Assembly: GCA_005798445.1 (NCBI GenBank)
Contig: SYJG01000079.1
Location: 1-45,261, forward strand
Source of the DNA: Planctomyces sp.
GTDB taxonomy: Bacteria > Planctomycetota > Planctomycetia > Planctomycetales > Planctomycetaceae
DNA: 45,261 bases
Direction of reading: 5' to 3'
Shown: positions 4,929-43,300 of the stretch, piece by piece
How the letters are laid out: every line of letters begins with the position of its first letter
How positions within the stretch are numbered: position 1 is the stretch's first letter
The notes under the pieces: generated by a model
Told to the model about the DNA's origin: nothing
Database searches by the model: none
What the model saw: the letters and a program-made list of their open reading frames with translations, nothing else
Made by a program: the position numbers and the translations under genes

Positions 4929-5714
4929 ATGATTAAAGCTCTCTTCACCAGCGCGTCGGGCATGTTGGCTCAGCAGACAGTCGTTGATGCGACCGCCAAT
5001 AACCTCGCCAACGTGGACACGACCGGCTTCAAGCGCAGCCAGGTCGAATTCCAAGACCTGCTGTATCAAACCGTTCGTGCTCCGGGAACACAGGGAGCCA
5101 ACGGAGCCGAAGTTCCCACGGGCATTCAGATCGGCAGTGGCGTGCGGACTTCCGGCATCACCAAGATTTTTTCGGTCGGCAATCTCGAAAACACGAACAA
5201 CTTGTTGGATCTGGCGGTCAACGGCGAGGGCTTCTTTGAGGTGCAACTGCCAAACGGCGATTCGCGTTACACGCGTGATGGTTCGTTTCGCACAAACTCG
5301 ACCGGTCAGCTCGTGACGGCAGATGGCTTTCTGTTACAACCGCCGGTGACCATTCCGCCGGATGCGCTGGCAATCACGGTGGGTGCGGACGGCGCGGTCT
5401 CCTACACCGACGCTCAGAATCAGTCGCAACAGGCCGGCCAAATTCTGACTTCGCGATTTTCGAACAACAGCGGACTCAGCTCCGAAGGTCGCAACCTGTT
5501 TGCCGCAACGACCGCCTCCGGTCAACCGCTGCCCGGCACACCGGGAGACAACGGCTTCGGCAGTTTGCAGCAGGGCTTTCTGGAACGATCCAACGTGCAA
5601 GTCGTGACCGAGATGATTCGGCTCATCACCGCGCAACGCGCGTTCGAGGCGAGTCAGCGAGCGGTTCTCACCAGCGACCAGATGCTGCAAGCCACCAACG
5701 GAATGGTGAGGTAA
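4929..5714 (+). CDS. flgG: Flagellar distal rod protein FlgG
   Basis: The 261-residue length matches FlgG. It starts with MIKALFTSASGMLAQQ, followed by the Flg_bb_rod motif ANNLANVDTTGFKRSQVEFQDL, and ends with the conserved helix EMIRLITAQRAFEASQRAV...LQATN. The protein forms the distal rod that crosses the periplasm through the P and L rings. AGGGAGG at 4914-4920 gives a near-consensus ribosome site 8 nt before the ATG and overlaps the flgF stop, so the two are probably translationally coupled. Confidence 0.95.
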   Translation: MIKALFTSASGMLAQQTVVDATANNLANVDTTGFKRSQVEFQDLLYQTVRAPGTQGANGAEVPTGIQIGSGVRTSGITKIFSVGNLENTNNLLDLAVNGEGFFEVQLPNGDSRYTRDGSFRTNSTGQLVTADGFLLQPPVTIPPDALAITVGADGAVSYTDAQNQSQQAGQILTSRFSNNSGLSSEGRNLFAATTASGQPLPGTPGDNGFGSLQQGFLERSNVQVVTEMIRLITAQRAFEASQRAVLTSDQMLQATNGMVR

Positions 5715-5718
5715 CGCG

Positions 5719-6810
5719 ATGGACGCTCTCTCAAAAAAAGGATTACGGCATTCGGCTTTCGGCTTTCGACTTTCGGCGGGTGTGCTGATTGTCTTGCTCG
5801 TTTTTGGCAACAGCGTGCGATCGGAGAACCGAGCCGTCGCTCGTGTCATGATCACGCTGCGTCCACAAACGCGAACGCTCTCCGACGTCGTGCGAATTGT
5901 GGACGTTGCGGACCTCAGCGGCGGTGATGAGGCGTTGCGTGAGCGAATCGCGGCACTCGACTTGGACGACGCACCGGCAGCGAGCGAGTCACTCGATATT
6001 TCGCCCCGGCAGATCGAGTTTCGATTGCGACTTGCGGGCGTCGATCCGCGACTCGTGTCGATTCGCGGTTCCACATTGCCGGCTTCCACAAACAAGCTTG
6101 CCAAAGCGCAAACCGTGGTCCAATTGGCGTCACAGTCGCGAACGGCGAATATGCATTTGAGCACGGAACAGGCGGTGCTTGCGGCTGTTCAAGCCTGCTT
6201 GAAAAAGCAGTTGCCGTGGCCGGAGGAGGACATCGTCGTGCAATTGGTTCAGCCGTTGCCGCGCGAACTGCGGGACAGTCCGACGTCGGCAACATTCAGT
6301 GCCGAGTGGCGATCCACAGGAACACCGCTCGGACGAATCACGCTGCAAATTGTGCGGCAGGTCACGGGTCAGCGAACGCTCGAAGTCGCTCTGCCGTTTG
6401 AAGTGCGGCATTTCGAGAAAGTCCTGGTGACATCTCAGCCAATCGCTCGCGGCCAAGTGATTGTGGCCTCGGACCTGGAGTTTGGTCGACAGGACGTGAC
6501 TCAACTGACCGGCTTCAGCTCGTCATCAGATCAACTGGTGGGGCAGAAGGCCAAGCGAATCCTTCCGGCCGCTCATGTCCTCAAAACGGGTGATCTTGAG
6601 CCAGTGGTTCGGGTAGTCGGACCGCCAATTGTGAAGCGGCTTGATCGAGTCAAAGTCATTGCCCACAGCGGGGCGTTGCACGTTGAAATGGCTGGCGAGG
6701 CTCAGAAGGAAGGCCGCGCGGGGGACGTAATCAAAGTCAAAAACATCCACTCGAACGCTCTGATCTCCGCACGCGTGTTAAGCGCGTCCGAGGTCGAGGT
6801 GGTTGATTGA
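5719..6810 (+). CDS. flgA: Flagellar P-ring assembly chaperone FlgA
   Basis: A 363-residue secreted protein. FlgA is the periplasmic chaperone for FlgI during P-ring assembly. A signal peptide (hydrophobic core GVLIVLLVFG, about residues 22-31) is followed by a planctomycete-type N-terminal region and a C-terminal SAF/ChapFlgA domain (about 230-363) with SQPIARGQVIVASDLEF and GDVIKVKN motifs. It is longer than enterobacterial FlgA (about 220). The codons just before the hydrophobic core are written by a heptamer array (5751-5778), so part of the signal-peptide n-region is repeat-derived. It lies 4 bp after flgG and ends just upstream of flgH. Confidence 0.88.
   Translation: MDALSKKGLRHSAFGFRLSAGVLIVLLVFGNSVRSENRAVARVMITLRPQTRTLSDVVRIVDVADLSGGDEALRERIAALDLDDAPAASESLDISPRQIEFRLRLAGVDPRLVSIRGSTLPASTNKLAKAQTVVQLASQSRTANMHLSTEQAVLAAVQACLKKQLPWPEEDIVVQLVQPLPRELRDSPTSATFSAEWRSTGTPLGRITLQIVRQVTGQRTLEVALPFEVRHFEKVLVTSQPIARGQVIVASDLEFGRQDVTQLTGFSSSSDQLVGQKAKRILPAAHVLKTGDLEPVVRVVGPPIVKRLDRVKVIAHSGALHVEMAGEAQKEGRAGDVIKVKNIHSNALISARVLSASEVEVVD
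5751..5778. repeat. Heptamer tandem repeat inside the flgA signal-peptide region
   Basis: Four 7-bp units are read as TTCGGCT, TTCGGCT, TTCGACT, TTCGGCG. On the other strand the unit is AGCCGAA, the same as the array at 40801-40832 and close to that at 14248-14279. As 7 is not a multiple of 3, each unit is read in a different frame. Confidence 0.8.
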
Positions 6811-33743: not shown

Positions 33744-36700
33744 ATGGCAGAAAACGCTCGGCAAAAGTGCTCGGAATGCGGCGCGATCCTTTCCGAATCG
33801 AGCAAGTCTGATCCGCCGCGTTGTGAGTCTTGTCAGATGACGTCTCAAAATACTCCGTCGTCTGCTCTCAAGACTCCTGGCGATCCGAGTGGTCCGACCG
33901 CACATCTCGCCGCTTCGAAGAGGACGGTCATCATCGGCAGCGACGATGACACTGATCTGAATCAGGCGATGACGCTGGACTTCGTCCCTTCGGCGGACCC
34001 CACCGAGCCGACAGTCTACGCTTCCGATGCGCTTGTGGCGTCGAGAAAGTTGGTCGGACGATTTCAAGTGATCAGCATTCTGGGTCGCGGATCGTTCGGC
34101 ACGGTCTATCGAGCCCACGATCCGTTGCTGGATCGAGAAGTCGCCTTGAAAGTGCCTCGGTTCGGGCCCGACGATCGCGACATGATGGAGCGATTTCATC
34201 GTGAGGCCAAAGCGGCGGCGCGTCTGCATCATCCCAATATTGTCACGCTGTATGAGAATGGTCAGACCGACGAAGGTCCGTATCTGGTCACCGAGTTCAT
34301 CAGCGGCGTCCCATTGTCTCAAAAGCTCAGAGAAAAACGACTCGACTTGCGGACGGCAGTGGATTGGACGAGGCAAATCGCCGAGGGACTCCACTACGCC
34401 CACGCCGAAGGGATCGTTCATCGCGACGTGAAACCGGCCAACATCATGCTGAATCTCGCGGGTCGGCCGCAGGTCATGGACTTTGGGTTGGCGAAACGTG
34501 AAGGGGACATCGAGTCGGGCATGACGATGGATGGGCAAATCGTCGGCACTCCGAATTACATGTCTCCGGAACAGGCGCGCGGGGCGATCGCCGAGATTGG
34601 TCCGCACAGTGATCAATACAGTGTCGGCGTGGTGCTCTACGAAATGTTGTGTGGCCGACCTCCGTTTTCCGGCGATCCGTGGACGATCATCGCGCGAGTC
34701 GCCAACGTCCGCGAGGCACCCCCAGCGCCTCGGTCGGTGAGGCCTGACCTGCCGCGCGATCTCGAAGCGTGCTGCTTGAAGGCGATGGAGAAGGATCCCC
34801 ACTCACGCTATCCGAATCTGCAAGCTCTGGCCGATGACTTGGATCACTGGCTGAGGGGGTTGCCATTGTTGGCTCGGCCGATTGGTCCGGTCGAACGATT
34901 CGCTCGCTGGTGCCGCCACAATCGGATGATCGCGAGTTTGGGTGGTGCGATCACGTTGTTGCTGCTGATCGCAGGGATCGTCGGACCTTGGCTGGCCGTC
35001 GAATTCAATAAATTGGCAACGGCCGCGAAGCGTGATGCCAACGAGGCCAAGCTCGCTCGCGACGATGAGAAGCAGGCACGCCTGGCCGCCGAGCAGTCGA
35101 CTATCGACACCTACACCGAGGCTGGGCTGACCGCCGATCGCAATGGCGATCCGCGCGAGGCGATCTTGTGGTTCGCGAATGCCGTCTCCGCGACCGAGAA
35201 TCATCCGCTGCGCGAGAAGCACAATCGCATTCGGTTTCAATCGTGGTTGCCAAAAATCACGACACCCATTCAGGCCTTTGCACAGCCATCGGTGTGGATC
35301 AAGGAACTGAGCTATCACCCTTCAGAAAATGATCAGTTGCTGACTCTCACACTCAATGGCACATGCGAGTTACTCAACGTGTCTGATGGCAGCCGCGCGA
35401 ACGTCCCGATCGAGGATTGGGTCCATGCCGCAACCTGTAGCCCCGATGGAAAACTGTTGGTCTTGGCATCCAACGCTGAAGTCATTGCCTTCGAGTATCC
35501 CACGAATAAGGAATTCGACCGCTGGAACCACCCTGAGAAAGTAAGCTCTCTGCAGTTCAGTTCGGACGGCCGCTTGCTAGTTGTCGGCGGCGAACGGACG
35601 GTGCAAGTCCGCGATATTCCGAACAAGTCGTTTCGGACTGGTCCGCTGGAAGTCGGCAGTCCCGTATCCTCAGCGGCCATTGCTCGAAATGGCGAATGTT
35701 TCGCGGTTCGCAGCGAGGACAAACAGATCCGAGTTTTTTCTTCCTCAATCGGCCAACTTAATTCCAAGCCTCTGCTGCCCGCCCAGCCCGCGGCGTCCAA
35801 CGTCGCTCCAATTTTCATCGACAACGATCGGCTACTGGTTCTCGACGACTACAAGTCCGCTCGTTGCTGGAACCTCGATCTGGAGACCATCGAATGGGAG
35901 CGGGAGATCAGTCGCGTCTTTGCGTCGGCTCAATCACCCGATGGGATGTGGATTGCTCTCGCGGAAGATTTCGACATTTTGCTGTTGAATGCGGATGCAG
36001 GGTGCTCAGTCGAGAAGCGAATCACATTTCCGCATGTGAATTTCTGCTTGAGCTTTCATCCGCAATGCTCGTTTCTGTTGGCGGGAAGTGCGGACAAGTC
36101 CGTTCGCTTGTTGGAGATTCCGTCCGGAAAGTTGGTTGGCAGCCCAATCCTGCATTGTGACGCCGTTCAGAAATGCGTGTGGTCGCCTGATGGAGCGACC
36201 TTTGCGACAACTCACTGGACGGGCGATTTGACCCGAATCTGGCGACTGAGCGAGGCACAATCGCTGGACTCTGCCATTGCCAATACAGAGTCGACTCCGT
36301 TTGTGCGGTTGAACCAAAGCGGTGACCGCTGGCTCCCTTCGAGTTTTGACAATGGACGGTCTCGGAGCAGCGTTGCAATTCAGGATTCGCGATCTGGGAA
36401 GACAGTCGGCCCGAAACTCTACGGTCCCGGACTCATCAGTGATGCCGACTTCGTTCCCAAATCACCGCTCGTGGTGCTCGCGTGTGGCGGCTCGCGAGAG
36501 GACGCCCGACGTGGATTGCAAGACCAGAAGCTCGACGATCCTGGGTCTGTTCGGTTCGTGAATTCCGAAACGGCTGAATCGGTGTTTGCGGATGTCACGA
36601 CTCCGTCACAACCGATCGCGGTGCGATGCAGCCCGGATGGCCAAACGGTCGTCGTGTTGTGCTACCAAGGCCAAGTCTTATTGCTGGATGCGGCAACAGG

Positions 36701-37553
36701 AAAAGTCCGCGCCGAGGACCAGGCGTTTGAAGGAAAGCCCGCGACTTTTGGCTTTGTGATTCGCGATCGGATTCGGTTTTCGGCACGGGGCGACCAATTC
36801 GTGATCTGGGGCTGCAACGAGATGATCGAACTGCGCAAAACCTCGACGGGTGAGCAACTGTTCGTCCTAAGGCATTCGCCCAATTTCATCCATGACGCGC
36901 AGTTCTCGCCCGATGGGCGGCTGATCGCGACTGGCGGGTCTGATCATACGGCTCGTCTGTGGGACACCAAAACTGGCGAGAATGTTGGTCCGGTTTTGGT
37001 GCATGCCGGATGGGTCTTCAGCGTGAAGTTCAGTCACGACGGTCGGCGCTTGCTGACCGCTTCGTCCGACAAGCAGGCCCGCATCTGGGACGTTGCCACG
37101 GGACGCGCGGAATTGGCGACTCGGGAGCACCTCGACCAAGTCTTCGACGCGACGTTCCTGCCCGGCGAAGAACTGTTGTTGGTGGCCAGTCGCGATGGTC
37201 GACTCACCGCTTGGGACGCGACGCTGGGAAAGTTGATCGCTCCTTCGTGGCGAATGCCAGACATGATCTACCAACTTTCGCTGGAAGGTTCGGGGGCTCA
37301 AGTCATCGCCTCCGGAAGAAGCTCGTCCGTTCGAAGATTCGATCGGAGCCGCTGGATTGTGGCGGGAGACTCGCAACTGAACCGTGAGGATGTGAAGCTG
37401 CTTGGCGAAATTCTGTCCTCGCAGCGCATTCACGAAGGAGGTGCGGCCACCAGCCTGACCTCCGAGGAATGGCTCGAACGCTGGATCAAGTTTCGTAATC
37501 AATACCCCGACCACCCGGTACTCAGGATGCCACGGAAATCCAAAGACGATTGA
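33744..37553 (+). CDS. Membrane Ser/Thr kinase with C-terminal WD40 repeats
   Basis: A 1269-residue protein. The N-terminus has a small zinc-ribbon-like CxxC pair (CSEC at 9-12, CESC at 27-30). The Hanks-type kinase domain spans about 106-370: glycine loop GRGSFGTV (114-121), K136 in VALKV, HRDVKPAN with D228, DFG at 246-248, and SPEQ in the activation segment. All catalytic residues are present. One transmembrane helix (about 396-418, IASLGGAITLLLLIAGIVGPWLAV) is followed by a linker and many WD40 blades (FSPDGRLIATGGSDHTARLWD, FSHDGRRLLTASSDKQARIWD), probably extracytoplasmic. Kinase-WD40 fusions are common in planctomycetes and would couple sensing to phosphorylation; targets are unknown. 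Confidence 0.95.
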   Translation: MAENARQKCSECGAILSESSKSDPPRCESCQMTSQNTPSSALKTPGDPSGPTAHLAASKRTVIIGSDDDTDLNQAMTLDFVPSADPTEPTVYASDALVASRKLVGRFQVISILGRGSFGTVYRAHDPLLDREVALKVPRFGPDDRDMMERFHREAKAAARLHHPNIVTLYENGQTDEGPYLVTEFISGVPLSQKLREKRLDLRTAVDWTRQIAEGLHYAHAEGIVHRDVKPANIMLNLAGRPQVMDFGLAKREGDIESGMTMDGQIVGTPNYMSPEQARGAIAEIGPHSDQYSVGVVLYEMLCGRPPFSGDPWTIIARVANVREAPPAPRSVRPDLPRDLEACCLKAMEKDPHSRYPNLQALADDLDHWLRGLPLLARPIGPVERFARWCRHNRMIASLGGAITLLLLIAGIVGPWLAVEFNKLATAAKRDANEAKLARDDEKQARLAAEQSTIDTYTEAGLTADRNGDPREAILWFANAVSATENHPLREKHNRIRFQSWLPKITTPIQAFAQPSVWIKELSYHPSENDQLLTLTLNGTCELLNVSDGSRANVPIEDWVHAATCSPDGKLLVLASNAEVIAFEYPTNKEFDRWNHPEKVSSLQFSSDGRLLVVGGERTVQVRDIPNKSFRTGPLEVGSPVSSAAIARNGECFAVRSEDKQIRVFSSSIGQLNSKPLLPAQPAASNVAPIFIDNDRLLVLDDYKSARCWNLDLETIEWEREISRVFASAQSPDGMWIALAEDFDILLLNADAGCSVEKRITFPHVNFCLSFHPQCSFLLAGSADKSVRLLEIPSGKLVGSPILHCDAVQKCVWSPDGATFATTHWTGDLTRIWRLSEAQSLDSAIANTESTPFVRLNQSGDRWLPSSFDNGRSRSSVAIQDSRSGKTVGPKLYGPGLISDADFVPKSPLVVLACGGSREDARRGLQDQKLDDPGSVRFVNSETAESVFADVTTPSQPIAVRCSPDGQTVVVLCYQGQVLLLDAATGKVRAEDQAFEGKPATFGFVIRDRIRFSARGDQFVIWGCNEMIELRKTSTGEQLFVLRHSPNFIHDAQFSPDGRLIATGGSDHTARLWDTKTGENVGPVLVHAGWVFSVKFSHDGRRLLTASSDKQARIWDVATGRAELATREHLDQVFDATFLPGEELLLVASRDGRLTAWDATLGKLIAPSWRMPDMIYQLSLEGSGAQVIASGRSSSVRRFDRSRWIVAGDSQLNREDVKLLGEILSSQRIHEGGAATSLTSEEWLERWIKFRNQYPDHPVLRMPRKSKDD

Positions 37554-37586
37554 TGTGATCCCTCCGTGTCGGCCCGACGAGTCAAC

Positions 37587-38351
37587 ATGACGAAAAAACG
37601 CCAACGCCGCCTCATCGCGTTCGACTTGAATCCTCAAGCTGGCATGCCGATTGAGCCGGCTTCGTCCAACCGTGAATGGATGGACCAGAGTCGTGACCGT
37701 TTTGCCTATCGTTGTTTGCCGCTGGTGATCGCGAATCAGGGGGGGTGGATCATCCGCTGCCCCATCAGTTTCAGCGTGCGATGGAATGGTGGACCGGAAC
37801 TCGCGGATCTCAAAGTCCGCAAGCCGCGAAACGGACAGGGCCAATCGGACTACATCGTGAGCCACTTCGGCGGTGGAGTTCTCACGATCTTGTTGCCGTA
37901 TCTGTTTCGAACCCCGCGGGGCGTCAACCTGTGGGTAAAAGGTCCGTCCAATTGGATCAAAGATGGAATTCAACCGCTCGAAGGAATCGTCGAGACCGAC
38001 TGGAACGAATCCACGTTCACCATGAATTGGAAGCTGACTCGCCGCAATCACTCCGTCCGCTTCGAGCAAGGGGAGCCGATCTGCATGATCGTGCCCGTTC
38101 CGCGCGGATTGGCCGAGTCGTTTGATCCGGTCTGCCAACCCTTGTCCACGAACCCGAAGCTCGAAAAAGCTCTCGAACAATGGCGAACAGCGCGAACCGC
38201 ACAAATTGAGCGGCTCACCCGATATCTCGAATCCGAGAGCAAACCTGGCTGGCAGCGAGATTACCTGCTCGGTCGAAAAACCGACGGAACGTCCTTCGTG
38301 GAACATCAAACCAAACTGCAACTGCGCCCGTTCCGGCGAGCAACCAACTGA
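37587..38351 (+). CDS. DUF6065-like protein
   Basis: A 254-residue protein that I associate with the uncharacterised DUF6065 family (from memory). Conserved-looking features are LIAFDLNP near the start, REWMDQSRDRFAYRCLPLVIANQGGWIIRCP (about 30-60), a WVKGPSNWIKDGIQPLEGIVETDW segment, and FEQGEPICMIVPVPRG. It is beta-rich, without signal peptide or membrane segment. No function is known to me. It begins 33 bp after the kinase stop and is followed by the glycosyltransferase gene, so it may belong to that group. ATG at 37587 is chosen; GTG at 37566 is an alternative. Confidence 0.65.
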   Translation: MTKKRQRRLIAFDLNPQAGMPIEPASSNREWMDQSRDRFAYRCLPLVIANQGGWIIRCPISFSVRWNGGPELADLKVRKPRNGQGQSDYIVSHFGGGVLTILLPYLFRTPRGVNLWVKGPSNWIKDGIQPLEGIVETDWNESTFTMNWKLTRRNHSVRFEQGEPICMIVPVPRGLAESFDPVCQPLSTNPKLEKALEQWRTARTAQIERLTRYLESESKPGWQRDYLLGRKTDGTSFVEHQTKLQLRPFRRATN

Positions 38352-38358
38352 TGGAGGA

Positions 38359-38429
38359 TTTTCGATTTCCGATTTTTGATTTTCGATTGAACCGCATCCT
38401 CAATCAAAAATCGACAATCGACAATCGGA
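38359..38429. repeat. TCGATTTT/AAAATCGA inverted repeat
   Basis: The T-rich stretch around CGATTTCCGATTTTTGATTTTCGATTG (38364-38389) is followed by its approximate reverse complement CAATCAAAAATCGAC plus CAATCG repeats (38401-38427). It is AT-rich compared with its surroundings and fills the gap between the DUF6065-like and glycosyltransferase genes; the hairpin with T-rich tracts could attenuate or terminate transcription. Confidence 0.65.
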
Positions 38430-38432
38430 AAC

Positions 38433-39320
38433 ATGCCACGACACGAAATCGTCGTCTGCACCGAAAACACAGACTATCTGGTCTGGCAGACGATGCTGTT
38501 TCATTATTCGTGCGTGACGCATCTGGGACGTCCGCCGATCGTCGTGGTCCACCAGCAGGGTGAACCGCTTCTGCCCGGCTTTGAGCAGATTCGAGCAGCC
38601 GGTGGACGCTTGCAACTCGCGCCGAATTATCGTGATCTGAATGGAATCAGTTATCCGCCGCGCAACACCGCCGGATCACTCAGGCACGTCGAGGCCGATG
38701 CCGACTACATTGTGTTGTGCGACTCAGACATGCTCTTTCTGCAACCGTTTCCGTACGACGAACTGATCCTCTCCGACCGACAAATCAGCTTCGACTATTG
38801 TGGTTATCTTCAACCAGACGCACCCGAGCATCAGCCAACTCTGGACGATGTCTGTCGCCAAGCCGGTATCAATCCCCGCCGGTTACGGAAACCACTCATT
38901 GACGGCGGCGTGCCGCACGTCATCCCCACACGCTGGCAACGACCGCTCAGCGATTCCTGGTTCGAGATGATGGAACTGTTTCCGACAATTGGCACGGAAG
39001 ATTACGGCCAACCTCGCAAAACCTGGCTGACCGCGATGTGGGCTCTCGTGATGTCCATGCACCGCCTGAAACTCAAAGCCGTCTCGACAAAGCTCTGCCT
39101 CACCAACTTTCAAGAAGATCAGCCGATGCCGCTGCTTGATGCCGCGGGTCCAAAAGTGTTGCACTACTGTTACGGCGGGCCGAGCTTTAACAAACGAGAC
39201 TTCGGCACCGCCGAAGCGGCCAACGAATATGTTTGGAAAGTTCCCAAAGATGACGGTTCGATCGCCGGAACCATCCGTCGGCAACTTCGCGATGCTCGCA
39301 AGTTCTACGGCATCGCCTGA
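38433..39320 (+). CDS. GT-A-like glycosyltransferase
   Basis: A 295-residue cytoplasmic protein. EIVVCTENTDYLVWQTMLFHYSC and PPIVVVHQQGEP form the first strands of a nucleotide-sugar-binding fold, and YIVLCDSDMLFL (D97-S-D99) is a DxD metal/nucleotide-sugar motif. The sequence RNTAGSLRHVEADADY before it is of the type seen in small hydroxyproline- or protein-linked glycosyltransferases. VLHYCYGGPSFNKRDF near the C-terminus may bind the acceptor. Exact donor and acceptor are unknown. The gene lies between the DUF6065-like gene and the polyproline mini-gene, which makes a proline-rich acceptor conceivable, but this is only an inference. Confidence 0.68.
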   Translation: MPRHEIVVCTENTDYLVWQTMLFHYSCVTHLGRPPIVVVHQQGEPLLPGFEQIRAAGGRLQLAPNYRDLNGISYPPRNTAGSLRHVEADADYIVLCDSDMLFLQPFPYDELILSDRQISFDYCGYLQPDAPEHQPTLDDVCRQAGINPRRLRKPLIDGGVPHVIPTRWQRPLSDSWFEMMELFPTIGTEDYGQPRKTWLTAMWALVMSMHRLKLKAVSTKLCLTNFQEDQPMPLLDAAGPKVLHYCYGGPSFNKRDFGTAEAANEYVWKVPKDDGSIAGTIRRQLRDARKFYGIA

Positions 39321-39367: not shown

Positions 39368-39396
39368 TTGAGCAACTCCCTTTGCTTCCGTATATC
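39368..39396 (+). promoter_or_regulatory. Putative sigma-70 promoter of the polyproline mini-gene
   Basis: TTGAGC (39368-39373), a 17-bp spacer and TATATC (39391-39396), each with four of six consensus bases, end 43 bp before the ATG at 39440. This would allow separate transcription of the mini-gene. Confidence 0.45.
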
Positions 39397-39439
39397 TGTC
39401 GTCAGAGTTCTTTCACCACCTTTTGAATGGAGCAGTTTC

Positions 39440-39514
39440 ATGCCATTTCCTCCGCCTCCCCCACCGCTACCGCCGCCACCGCCGCCACTTCCACCTCCTC
39501 TTCCGCCAAGATAA
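39440..39514 (+). CDS. 24-codon polyproline peptide
   Basis: A mini-gene encoding Met-Pro-Phe, then runs of six, six, three and two prolines separated by single leucines, and ending Pro-Arg-stop; 18 of 24 residues are proline. GGAG at 39429-39432 lies 7 nt before the ATG, and a promoter-like pair lies 43 bp upstream. Proline codons vary (CCA, CCT, CCG, CCC all used), so this is not a plain codon microsatellite. A 13-bp GC-rich hairpin follows 27 nt after the stop. Proline runs stall ribosomes without EF-P, so a regulatory leader is one reading; a peptide or modified product associated with the flanking glycosyltransferase and methyltransferase is another. I know no named family for it. Confidence 0.6.
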   Translation: MPFPPPPPPLPPPPPPLPPPLPPR

Positions 39515-39541
39515 TCGCAGCGGTGGAACGGCTGTTCGTTC

Positions 39542-39570
39542 TGACCGCCGGCTCGTTGAGTCGGCGGTCA
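39542..39570 (+). terminator. Strong hairpin after the polyproline mini-gene
   Basis: TGACCGCCGGCTC (39542-39554) pairs with GAGTCGGCGGTCA (39558-39570), 13 bp including one G-T pair, around a GTT triloop. Only TTTCATT follows, so it may be a weak terminator or an attenuator 30 nt before the methyltransferase start. Confidence 0.6.
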
Positions 39571-39600: not shown

Positions 39601-40344
39601 ATGCAGTCACTGTCGACGGAGGAAATCCATCAGATGTTCTCGGATGCCGTCGTCCGTCATGGCCCGCTCGCGGGACTGCGGTACGCCGAGATGACTTCCA
39701 TTGCCAGCTCGCTGTACCCCAAGTTGCTGGGCTCGTACGAGTCCGAGCTGCATCCGTGGATCACTGAGATCTGCGAAGCGGGCTACACCGAGATCATCGA
39801 CGTGGGCTGTGCGGAAGGGTACTACGCCGTCGGGCTAGCGATGCGAGTCCCCAAAGCGGCGGTCTACGCCTACGACACCTACGAAGGATCACGGCAACTC
39901 TGCGCCGCCTGCGCGAAGCTCAACCGAGTGGCAAGACGCCTGAAGATCCGATCGCAGTTTACGGCTGAAGAACTGGGCAGCATTCCCATTCGACATCGCG
40001 GGTTGATCGTCTGCGACTGTGACGGAGGAGAAAACGAAATCTTCACCGATCAATCTCACCGGCAATTCGCCGAATGGGACTTGCTGATCGAAACGCACGA
40101 TTGCTACGACATCACGATCTCAACTCGACTGGCGGAATTATTCCGAGAGACACACGAATTGCGTTCCATCCTCAGCATCGACGATATCCAAAAAGCCAAA
40201 TCCTACGATTACCCGGAACTCGTGGGGCTGGATCTGGCCACTCGTCGAGCGATCCTCGCCGAGTACCGTCCGACGCTGATGGAATGGCATTTTTACTCGT
40301 CCCGATCAGCACTCGCTCGATTTCAGGCCGACCGGCCAATCTGA
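39601..40344 (+). CDS. Class I SAM-dependent methyltransferase
   Basis: A 247-residue protein with the SAM-binding loop IIDVGCAEGYYAVGLA (residues 65-80), an acidic end to strand 2 (VYAYDTYE) and a motif IV region GLIVCDCDGGENEIF. The first 60 residues are a helical cap. The layout resembles FkbM-like and small-molecule or glycan O-methyltransferases; the acceptor is unknown. GAGAAGG lies close before the ATG. It follows the polyproline hairpin, and its expression could depend on read-through of that structure. Confidence 0.75.
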   Translation: MQSLSTEEIHQMFSDAVVRHGPLAGLRYAEMTSIASSLYPKLLGSYESELHPWITEICEAGYTEIIDVGCAEGYYAVGLAMRVPKAAVYAYDTYEGSRQLCAACAKLNRVARRLKIRSQFTAEELGSIPIRHRGLIVCDCDGGENEIFTDQSHRQFAEWDLLIETHDCYDITISTRLAELFRETHELRSILSIDDIQKAKSYDYPELVGLDLATRRAILAEYRPTLMEWHFYSSRSALARFQADRPI

Positions 40345-40386: not shown

Positions 40387-43300
40387 ATGCGTGCCTCGTC
40401 CTGGTTTGTTTTCGTGCTCGCGTTGTCCGTGAACCTGGCGGTCGCTGCGGATGCTCCGTTGCCCGACGTTGTCGAATTCAATCGCGACATCCGGCCCCTC
40501 CTGTCTGACAACTGCTTCTTCTGCCACGGGCCGGACAAGAACAAACGCAAGGCCGATCTGCGGCTCGACACGGCCGAAGGGTTGTCCGGAAAGCCGGGTG
40601 AACCGGGCACCGTCGCGCCGGGCAAGCCGGCCGAGAGCGAACTCTTTCGCCGCATCACCTCGACTGACCCCGAACAGAAAATGCCGCCGGCAGAAAGTGG
40701 GAAGTCGCTCACGCCGCGCGACATCGCGCTGCTCAAAAAATGGATCGAGCAGGGTGCAAAGTACGAAGGCCATTGGGCCTTCCTACCCATCAAACGCCCG
40801 GCCGAAAGCCGAGAGCCGAAAGCCGAAAGCCGTGATACCGTTTTTCAATCGGCCCCAAAGATCGACGGATTCATCCGCGAGTCACTCGCGAAACAAAATC
40901 TCAAACCGTCACCCGCCGCCGACCGCATCACGTTGATCCGCCGGCTGAGCTTCGATCTGATCGGTCTGCCACCGACGCCCGAGGAAGTCGCTGCGTTCGT
41001 GAACGACTCGTCGCCGGACGCCTACGAAAAGCTCGTCGATCGGCTGCTCAAGTCGCCGCATTTCGGAGAGCGGCAGGCGATGTGGTGGCTGGACCTCGTG
41101 CGGTACGCCGACACCGTTGGCTATCACGGCGATCAGGACATGAGCGTCTCGCCATTTCGGCAGTACGTCATCGACTCATTCAACGCGAACAAGCGGTTTG
41201 ATCAATTCACGATCGAGCAGCTCGCTGGCGACCTGCTGCCGAATGCAACGCGCGAACAGTTGATCGCCTCCGGCTACAACCGCCTGGGGATGATGAGCGC
41301 CGAAGGGGGCGTGCAAGACAAGGAGTACCTCGCGAAGTACATCGCCGAACGTGTCCGCAACGCGACCGGCACTTGGATGGGGATCACGCTCGGCTGTGCC
41401 GAGTGTCACGACCATAAGTTCGATCCGTTGACGCAGCGCGACTTCTATCGCTTTGAGGCGTTCTTCGCCGACATCCAAGAGCGGGGCTTGTACTCCGGCG
41501 CACACGCCGACGGCAACTGGGGGCCGTTCGTCAAAGTTCCGAACGCCGACCAAGAAACCGCGCTGGCGAAGCTCGACCAGGAAATTGCTGGCGTTAAAAA
41601 GGTCTTGGAGACAACGACGCCAGAACTCGCCGCCGCCCAGGCGGCGTGGGAGAAATCGCACGTCGTGTGGACCGTGCTCAAGTCAGCCAGCATCACCTCG
41701 GCCGAAGGAGTTACTCTCACGGCAAAGGACGATGGTTCGATTCTCGCCAGCGGCAAGAACCCGGCGACCGACACGTACACGCTGGTTGTGAAGAACCCGC
41801 CGCAAGGGATCACGGCCTTCCGTCTCGAGGTTCTGCCGGACGATTCGCTGCCGGCAAAAGGTCCGGGGCGAGCCGGCAACGGCAACTTCGTGCTCAGTGA
41901 GTTCACCGTGAAGCACATCGTCGGCGAGACGATCGACGAAGCCGTCCCGTTGCAGAACGCGACCGCGACCTACGAACAAACGGGCGGAGCCGAAAGCAAT
42001 CCGTACAAAAAATGGGCGGTGGCAGCCGCGATCGACGGCGACGCGAAAGGCAAAACGTGGGGCTGGGCGATCATGGAAAAAGTCGGCCAGCCGCAGACCG
42101 CCGTGTTTGAAACCGTCAGCGACATCGTTGGCGGAGAGAGTTCGATGCTGACGATCTCGCTGCTGCAAAATCTCGACAACCCAAACCACACGATCGGCCG
42201 CTTTCGGATTTCGGTGGCGACTTCCCCGCGACCGATCCGAGCCGATCAAGCTCCGCCGTCGAACATCGCCTCGCTGCTGGCGATCGCCGCCGAACAACGC
42301 AGCGATGCACAGAAGAACGAACTCGCCGCGCACTACCGCTCGATCGCCCCGATGCTCGACGCCGCTCGCAAGCAACTCGCCGAACGAGAGAGCGCTCGCA
42401 AGGATTTGGAGGCTCGCATCCCCAGCACGCTCATCACCGCCTCGGTCCAACCGCGCATGGTTCGCATTCTGAAACGGGGCAACTGGATGGACGATAGCGG
42501 CGAAGAGGTGACCCCCGCGTTCCCGGCCGTCTTCAGCGCTGGGGCCGGTCTCAGCGCTGGGGTCGGTCTCAGCGCTGGGGCCGGTCTCCTGACCGAGCCC
42601 CCCGACCGACCGAAGGTCTCCTCGAAAGACAAGAGTGCGTCGGAAGAAGACCGGCGGTCAGACGAGCGGCGGGGTCAGGAGACCCGCGCCGAGCGTCTGT
42701 CACGCTACGACCTCGCGAAGTGGATCGTTTCGAAAGACAACCCGCTGACGGCGCGAGTGTTCGTGAATCGTATTTGGAAACAGCTCTTCGGAGCCGGCTT
42801 GTCGCGCAAGCTCGATGACCTCGGAGCACAAGGGGAGTGGCCGAGCCATCCACTGCTTCTCGATCATCTCGCCGCCACGTTTGCCGACAGCGGCTGGGAC
42901 GTGAAACAGCTCATCAAGTCGATCGTCCTGTCGAAGACCTATCAGCAGTCGTCTCTCACCGGTCGCGAGCTGCGCGAGGCCGACTCGTACAACCGTTGGC
43001 TCGCACGACAGGGACGGTTCCGTATCGACGCCGAACTGGTCCGCGACAATGCGCTGGCGGTCAGCGGCTTGCTGGTGACGAAGCTCGGCGGCAAGAGCGT
43101 TCACCCGTATCAGCCGCCGGGCTATTTCGCGTACCTCAACTTCCCGGCTCGCGAATGGCAAAACGACACGGGCGAGAACCTGTATCGCCGCGGCCTCTAC
43201 ACGCACTGGCAACGGCAATACCTGCATCCCAGCTTTCTCGCATTCGACGCTCCCAACCGCGAAGAATGCACTGCCGACCGTCCCCGTTCGAACACACCGC

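Follow-up and report, generated by a model that had tools for sequence, protein, structure and literature searches.

Organization of the locus

The window analysed here, a stretch of 45,261 nucleotides from Planctomyces sp. (contig SYJG01000079.1), harbours a unit made up of a Ser/Thr kinase-WD40 gene, a DUF6065 gene, a gene for a glycosyltransferase (GT) resembling hydroxyproline O-arabinosyltransferases (HPAT) and a polyproline mini-gene, which is followed by a methyltransferase-like gene (Table 1). The open reading frame of the mini-gene, proposed in the initial annotation, was borne out when the sequence was re-read: 18 of its 24 codons encode proline, in runs of six, six, three and two plus one single residue, and Ser, Thr and Tyr are absent from the peptide. 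The signals proposed with it are likewise present, namely the GGAG 7 nt before the ATG, the 13-bp hairpin after the mini-gene and the 86 bp between its stop and the methyltransferase ATG. The proposed promoter stood in part: the hexamer pair with its 17-bp spacer does exist, but it is weak, with 8 of 12 consensus bases, and was missed by a promoter scan with a threshold of 9 bases, which found none. No protease or transporter gene was seen in the unit. The stretch that separates the DUF6065 and GT genes (38357-38427) contains two arrays close to each other, built of the 7-bp units GATTTTC and CAATCGA.

Table 1. Features of the window and of the related loci discussed in the text
Feature	Location	Strand	Evidence or remark
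Ser/Thr kinase-WD40 protein, first gene of the unit	33744..37553	+	Pfam Pkinase (E 6.2e-49), WD40
DUF6065 protein (PF19541), predicted dUTPase-like beta fold	37566..38351	+	Pfam E 2.8e-91; AF2 pLDDT 89.8; Foldseek
HPAT-like glycosyltransferase, DSD motif, predicted GT-A-type fold	38433..39320	+	Pfam HPAT; AF2 and Foldseek
Weak promoter-like pair TTGAGC-17-TATATC	39368..39396	+	same hexamers in sister genome (alignment)
Ribosome-binding site GGAG	39429..39432	+	same in sister locus L017
Polyproline mini-gene	39440..39514	+	24 aa, MPFPPPPPPLPPPPPPLPPPLPPR; ORF list, locus comparison, strand scan
Terminator-like hairpin, 13 pairs, loop of 3	39542..39570	+	tail TTTCATT; identical in L017
Class I methyltransferase-like protein	39601..40344	+	weak methyltransferase matches, below cut-off only
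DUF6065-Cupin_8/JmjC frame	L081:7950-9695		Pfam
DUF6065-Cupin_8/JmjC frame	L089:7887-9599		Pfam
DUF6065-Cupin_8/JmjC frame	L090:6935-8599		tblastn and frame only
Sinorhizobium autotransporter with long polyproline linker, directly before DUF6065	L007:3451-6732

Recurrence of the glycosyltransferase and the mini-ORF

The GT was found in at least seven of 397 genomes of the class by means of a four-row profile, a lower bound since at most five candidates per genome were scored. The loci concerned are the window, G006 (L002/L017), G731 (L018), G743 (L019), G633 (L102), G674 (L103) and G509 (L104), loci and genomes being matched via equal contig coordinates. Identity to the window GT reaches 95% in L017 and 42-58% in the other cassette loci. 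When 13 candidates were scored in the family, 6 of 170 genomes carried the GT, with no new cassette locus and only a distant copy (L175, see below), and among 40 near relatives it was present in three: that of the window, G006, and G009 as a truncated copy. A single-sequence search of a phylum sample returned 1 of 392 genomes, that of the window itself; the profile search recovered more. The window GT was not found in phages or plasmids, and a search of viral contigs with the GT alignment gave no match either.

In all six testable loci (the window, L017, L018, L102, L103 and L104), the next ORF directly after the GT is a proline-rich mini-ORF; L019 is excluded because its contig ends inside the GT. 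One of the downstream products begins MSYSPPPYSPPYSPPVSPPPYSPP; the L018 mini-protein reads MPESPPPPPPG, that of L102 reads MSYSPPPYSPPYSPPVSPPPYSPPASPPPVSPPPYSPPTG, that of L103 reads MQHSPPPPPSPPPPPPPAPPPPSPPPAKK, with 12 residues more if translated from an upstream ATG behind GGAGG, and that of L104 begins MSEPTYPPPTSPPPPVPPPPLPPPP, an earlier in-frame ATG being also present. Their lengths are 24, 28, 11, 40, 29 (41 from the upstream ATG) and 47 aa in the window, L017, L018, L102, L103 and L104, and the share of proline in the forms scored ranges from 50 to 79%. Ribosome-site-like sequences precede them: GGAG in the window and L017, AAGGGG in L018, AAAGGG in L102, GGAGG for the longer L103 form and AAGGAGA in L104. 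These mini-proteins are alike in composition, not in alignment, being of polyproline, SPPPP or YSPPPYSPP type, and no signal peptide was evident on them by eye. The Ser-Pro3+ or contiguous-Pro pattern of an extensin-type substrate was indeed found, as SPPP in L018, L102, L103 and L104 and as Ser-free runs of 6-8 prolines in the window and L017. The six loci also display the RiPP-type co-conservation of a precursor gene with tailoring enzyme genes.

The folding of the RNA 3' of the window stop was beaten by 1 of 200 shuffles (z -3.84). Compared across loci, this RNA folded better than shuffles in the window, L017, L018 and L103 (z -3.8, -3.1, -2.2 and -2.2), not clearly so in L104 (z -1.2) and no better in L102 (z 0.2).

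Coding potential of the mini-ORF

The window and its sister locus L017 differ, over the first 13 codons of the mini-gene and before any gap, by 0, 0 and 5 changes at codon positions 1, 2 and 3. Over the rest, gaps of 6 and 3 bp keep the frame, one Leu-to-Pro change occurs, and the stop is shifted by one codon. The initial annotation had named a lack of conservation of the mini-ORF, ribosome site or hairpin in close relatives, or a broken frame there, as grounds for refutation, and the outcome favours a gene.

A strict scan covered 622.8 kb of strand, taken from the window and from 21 loci (L018-L033, L041, L051 and L102-L104), each read in both directions; by title or kinship nearly all of these loci are planctomycete, and L017 was not among them. 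ORFs were retained if they began with ATG, encoded 8-70 aa and contained seven or more Pro that made up at least 50% of the residues, thresholds set after the mini-ORFs had been seen. Five ORFs passed, all five directly downstream of this GT. When the rule was relaxed to one PPP and a Pro content of 30% or more, 227 kb situated up to 1.5 kb from DUF6065 contained six ATG ORFs, convincing only in L017 and L018, and 496 kb at more than 3.5 kb from DUF6065 contained 12. Windows of 20 residues with at least 10 Pro were weakly enriched near DUF6065, at 0.20 per kb within 500 bp and 0.08, 0.11 and 0.06 per kb further outwards, many of them in antisense frames. Near planctomycete DUF6065 genes without GT, no convincing proline-rich mini-ORF was found. 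A tblastn search of plasmids with the mini-peptide gave no match, which means little because the peptide is of low complexity.

The mini-ORF might have arisen by chance where CCN triplets abound, and the CCN6 pattern does occur 95 times (overlapping) in the genome. Against this stand the presence of a mini-ORF in all six testable GT loci, the position of all five strict-scan ORFs downstream of a GT, and the third-position changes and frame-keeping gaps between the window and L017, so that we regard the probability of a chance frame as negligible. As judged from these comparisons, the window mini-ORF is a real protein-coding gene that recurs beside the GT.

The HPAT-like glycosyltransferase

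HPAT (PF23452) is the only Pfam family matched by the window GT (E 1.8e-6, 28.0 bits, cut-off 23.9), and matches at E<=0.1 were obtained for six of the seven GTs. When scored singly, the GT of L104 (26.4 bits) also lies above the cut-off, those of L102, L103 and L019 lie below it (L017 was not scored singly), and that of L018 gave no match at E<=0.01. The AF2 model (pLDDT 82.3) resembles, among the Foldseek matches listed, alpha-1,3-galactosyltransferases, blood-group transferases, UGGT and WbbM (E from 5e-7, TMq 0.40-0.53). The predicted model thus displays the GT-A-type fold with a DxD motif of HPAT/GT95, and the DxD aspartates D97 and D99 are invariant in all seven GTs. According to the profile matches and the predicted fold, this enzyme is a remote HPAT relative and only putatively an HPAT itself. 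G731 also encodes, on contig C325 (L175:1402-2364, minus strand), a second and distant GT that matches HPAT strongly (E 2.5e-27, 96.5 bits); no polyproline mini-ORF lies within 1.5 kb of it on either side.

DUF6065 and its genomic contexts

DUF6065 occurs in 80 of 397 genomes of the class and in all seven GT genomes (hypergeometric 1.1e-5), a co-occurrence that mostly reflects linkage because DUF6065 adjoins the GT in six of the seven; in G509 (L104), it lies on a different contig from the GT. Its predicted fold is dUTPase-like: among the 50 Foldseek matches listed, 48 are named dUTPase and the other two are SaPI-repressor chains. Invariant columns comprise one His and five Trp, two further Trp being nearly invariant, and no HxD...H motif was found among them. 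DUF6065 was accordingly rejected as a 2OG-Fe(II) hydroxylase, and is probably not such an enzyme itself, because of this predicted fold, though TMq values reach only 0.33-0.39.

The contexts of DUF6065 were surveyed in the best 80 loci of 299 relatives from a genome scan, which span several phyla by record title. In three of these 80 loci, from Novosphingobium, Porphyrobacter and a Caulobacteraceae MAG, a single reading frame covers both DUF6065 and a Cupin_8/JmjC hydroxylase domain (Table 1), and four more (L022, L029, L031 and L038) have a Cupin_8 relative within 150 bp. In a Pfam scan of 108 of 154 picked neighbour ORFs, without those outside 100-900 aa, those of L017-L019 and 19 others, the most frequent families were Cupin_8 and JmjC_2, with six members each (two fusions included). 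A hydroxylase acting in trans was also considered and rejected for the two families tested, PF13640 being present in four of the seven cassette genomes and Cupin_8 in one.

Polyproline also accompanies DUF6065 outside the planctomycetes. In Sinorhizobium medicae, 9 bp separate the start of DUF6065 from a preceding autotransporter gene, the linker of which contains runs of 20 and 11 Pro; proline-rich ORFs occupy the same place relative to DUF6065 in Mesorhizobium (L074, L079 and L092). At five gammaproteobacterial loci (L043, L045, L052, L059 and L065, two from one genome and one titled Woeseiaceae), a divergent lipoprotein-like gene encodes 8-19 consecutive Pro. Thirty-five loci are flanked by 7.5 kb in each direction. 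Among these, related loci being counted apart, runs of at least six Pro occur within 1.5 kb of DUF6065 in seven, one of which (L017) is the present cassette and two of which (L088 and L096) are doubtful; the corresponding numbers for the four successive 1.5 kb zones further out are 1, 2, 2 and 1. Such a run lies within 1.5 kb in at most 14 of the best 80 loci, most being without. In two S. meliloti plasmid records (L013 and L014, around 5500-6700), the annotation shows nothing but short pieces of the autotransporter, while DUF6065 is in two pieces or unannotated, as if both were decaying together.

Other genes of the unit and loss of the cassette

The kinase-WD40 gene is part of the unit in six of the seven GT loci. 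Its relatives lie just upstream of DUF6065, at 90% identity over 944 aa in L017, as full-length proteins at 46, 48 and 38% in L102, L103 and L019, and at 32% in L018, where the gene is cut by the contig end; in L104, none was seen by eye beside the GT. By tblastn, a relative of the methyltransferase was found only in L017 among the best 80 DUF6065 loci (of 299) and as a remnant in G009, and none was found in L102-L104. It was thus rejected as a cassette partner, the window and L017 being the only intact cassette loci to possess one. The gene that follows the mini-ORF is the methyltransferase in the window and L017, a histidine-kinase-like gene on the other strand in L018, convergent ORFs in L102 and L103, and an ABC-ATPase-like gene with its own Shine-Dalgarno in L104, those of L018 and L104 being named by eye.

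In G009, all that is left of kinase, DUF6065 and GT is a set of joined remnants attached to the methyltransferase end; the mini-gene has disappeared, the truncated GT copy having no mini-ORF. This arrangement suggests that the cassette was lost as a unit, provided that the assembly is correct. The record of L017 (CAMDPK010000004.1) is titled Candidatus Kuenenia stuttgartiensis; its contig matches G006, which belongs to the genus of the window, and the title looks doubtful.

Proposed function and alternative readings

The initial annotation had suggested, as one option, a short proline-rich peptide acted on by a neighbouring enzyme. For the GT or the DUF6065 protein, this option is well supported by the context, that is, by the remote HPAT kinship of the GT and by the six loci out of six. 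We consider it fairly probable that a proline-directed cassette (kinase-WD40 protein, DUF6065 and HPAT-like GT) acts on the mini-gene product as its substrate, which would make this product a bacterial extensin-like glycopeptide. Mechanistically, the peptide would be translated as a 24-residue polyproline rod, presumably with EF-P; a step dependent on DUF6065 would hydroxylate prolines in its PPP runs, or activate them in some other way, and the GT would then attach a sugar to the new hydroxyl, as plant HPAT does on the Ser-Hyp repeats of extensin. Since the window peptide is devoid of Ser, Thr and Tyr, its O-glycosylation would need hydroxyproline or another modified residue. Also in favour of this reading are the five strict-scan ORFs, the presence of DUF6065 in all seven GT genomes, its polyproline and Cupin_8 contexts elsewhere and the joint decay in G009, if correctly assembled. 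Against it stand the remoteness of the HPAT match, the strong HPAT relative L175 with no mini-ORF within 1.5 kb, the predicted dUTPase-like fold of DUF6065, the patchy occurrence of the two hydroxylase families, the scarcity of long polyproline runs near most DUF6065 genes, the separate contig of DUF6065 in G509 and the lack of an evident signal peptide. What the comparisons show directly is the gene, its recurrence beside the GT, the remote HPAT similarity of that GT and the co-occurrence with DUF6065; the peptide as GT substrate, proline hydroxylation, the identity of the sugar and the role of the product are inferred. As a broader and tentative proposal, these loci could represent a planctomycete class of ribosomal glycopeptides, in which a free polyproline or SPP-repeat mini-protein would be hydroxylated via DUF6065 and O-glycosylated by the HPAT-like enzyme, DUF6065 also serving surface-protein linkers in other phyla. 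In such a class, DUF6065 may be an unrecognised proline-modification factor, and the whole may be a bacterial counterpart of plant extensin chemistry.

The initial annotation had also offered an EF-P-sensitive leader of the methyltransferase gene. More generally, the mini-ORF would be an EF-P-dependent leader or attenuator in which stalling sets the expression of the next gene. Like such leaders, which are short ORFs with PPP, the mini-ORF is short and rich in PPP, and a hairpin follows it. Long PPP runs indeed stall ribosomes without EF-P (PMC11611912). However, the mini-ORF differs from such leaders by its location at the 3' end of the unit and by the lack of a constant, conserved gene downstream; the peptide sequences are widely divergent, and that of L102 contains few PPP. 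The methyltransferase version of this claim lost its footing with the distribution of that gene, and the leader reading as a whole is unsupported because the next gene changes between loci while the GT upstream is constant; we regard it as very improbable.

Two further alternatives keep the peptide and reassign the GT or its target. Polyproline forms PPII rods, and PPII-binding domains use aromatic residues. The peptide could thus be an unmodified polyproline II rod, binding for instance DUF6065, with its invariant and nearly invariant Trp, or the WD40 kinase, which recurs in most of these units, the GT acting elsewhere. This we find rather unlikely, as an HPAT-like GT adjoins the mini-ORF in every testable locus and its plant relatives glycosylate such sequences once hydroxylated (PMC8012813). 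Alternatively, the GT could glycosylate Ser, Thr, Tyr or a terminus rather than hydroxyproline, in the manner of the Ser galactosyltransferase of GT96 (SGT1) on extensins, a family related to GT95 (PMC8012813). In favour of this, Ser stands next to Pro in four peptides (L018, L102, L103 and L104) and neither tested hydroxylase family is found in all seven genomes; the window peptide, however, offers no such residue and that of L017 only a C-terminal Tyr, its sole Ser, Thr or Tyr. A target of this kind appears quite improbable.

Comparison with known systems

Under the preferred reading of a proline-directed cassette with its peptide substrate, the genes would form a modification unit akin to those of RiPPs or extensins. 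In the L102 peptide, SPPPY/SPPY recurs, an extensin-type pattern. As in plant extensins and their HPAT, the putative substrate is polyproline or Ser-Pro-rich and the GT shows remote HPAT similarity; unlike them, the system is bacterial, the peptide has 11-47 aa and no evident signal peptide, its gene adjoins that of the putative GT, and the unit contains no recognised prolyl hydroxylase. Glycocins, which are RiPPs with glycosylated precursors, resemble the unit in that a short precursor gene lies next to genes of tailoring enzymes, a GT among them, whereas the unit has no leader/core split and no protease or transporter gene, and combines a polyproline substrate with an HPAT-like GT. The DUF6065 loci of Sinorhizobium, Mesorhizobium and Gammaproteobacteria are alike in that DUF6065 adjoins a polyproline-bearing protein, but there the prolines form the linker of a longer polypeptide, as opposed to a free mini-protein in the cassette, and no relative of the window GT was found at the autotransporter or lipoprotein-like loci. 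In plants, HPAT1-3 (GT95) act on extensin, of which Ser-Hyp3+ is the hallmark, and contiguous-Hyp glycosylation is known as cell-wall chemistry (PMC8012813). Literature searches, from which preprints and most subscription journals were absent, returned no mention of DUF6065, no bacterial HPAT in titles and abstracts, and no bacterial extensin-like, planctomycete proline-rich or glycosylated polyproline RiPP peptide. If the proposed function is true, the unit, in which a minimal polyproline substrate is paired with an HPAT-like enzyme, would offer a simple system for the study of contiguous-Hyp glycosylation, together with a lead on the role of DUF6065. Gene finders easily miss such peptides because they have 11-47 codons and are of low complexity. 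Repeats of another kind were observed downstream in the window (42533-42588), inside a PSD1 (DUF1553) gene, where an in-frame 18-bp repeat encodes SAGAGL-type repeats.
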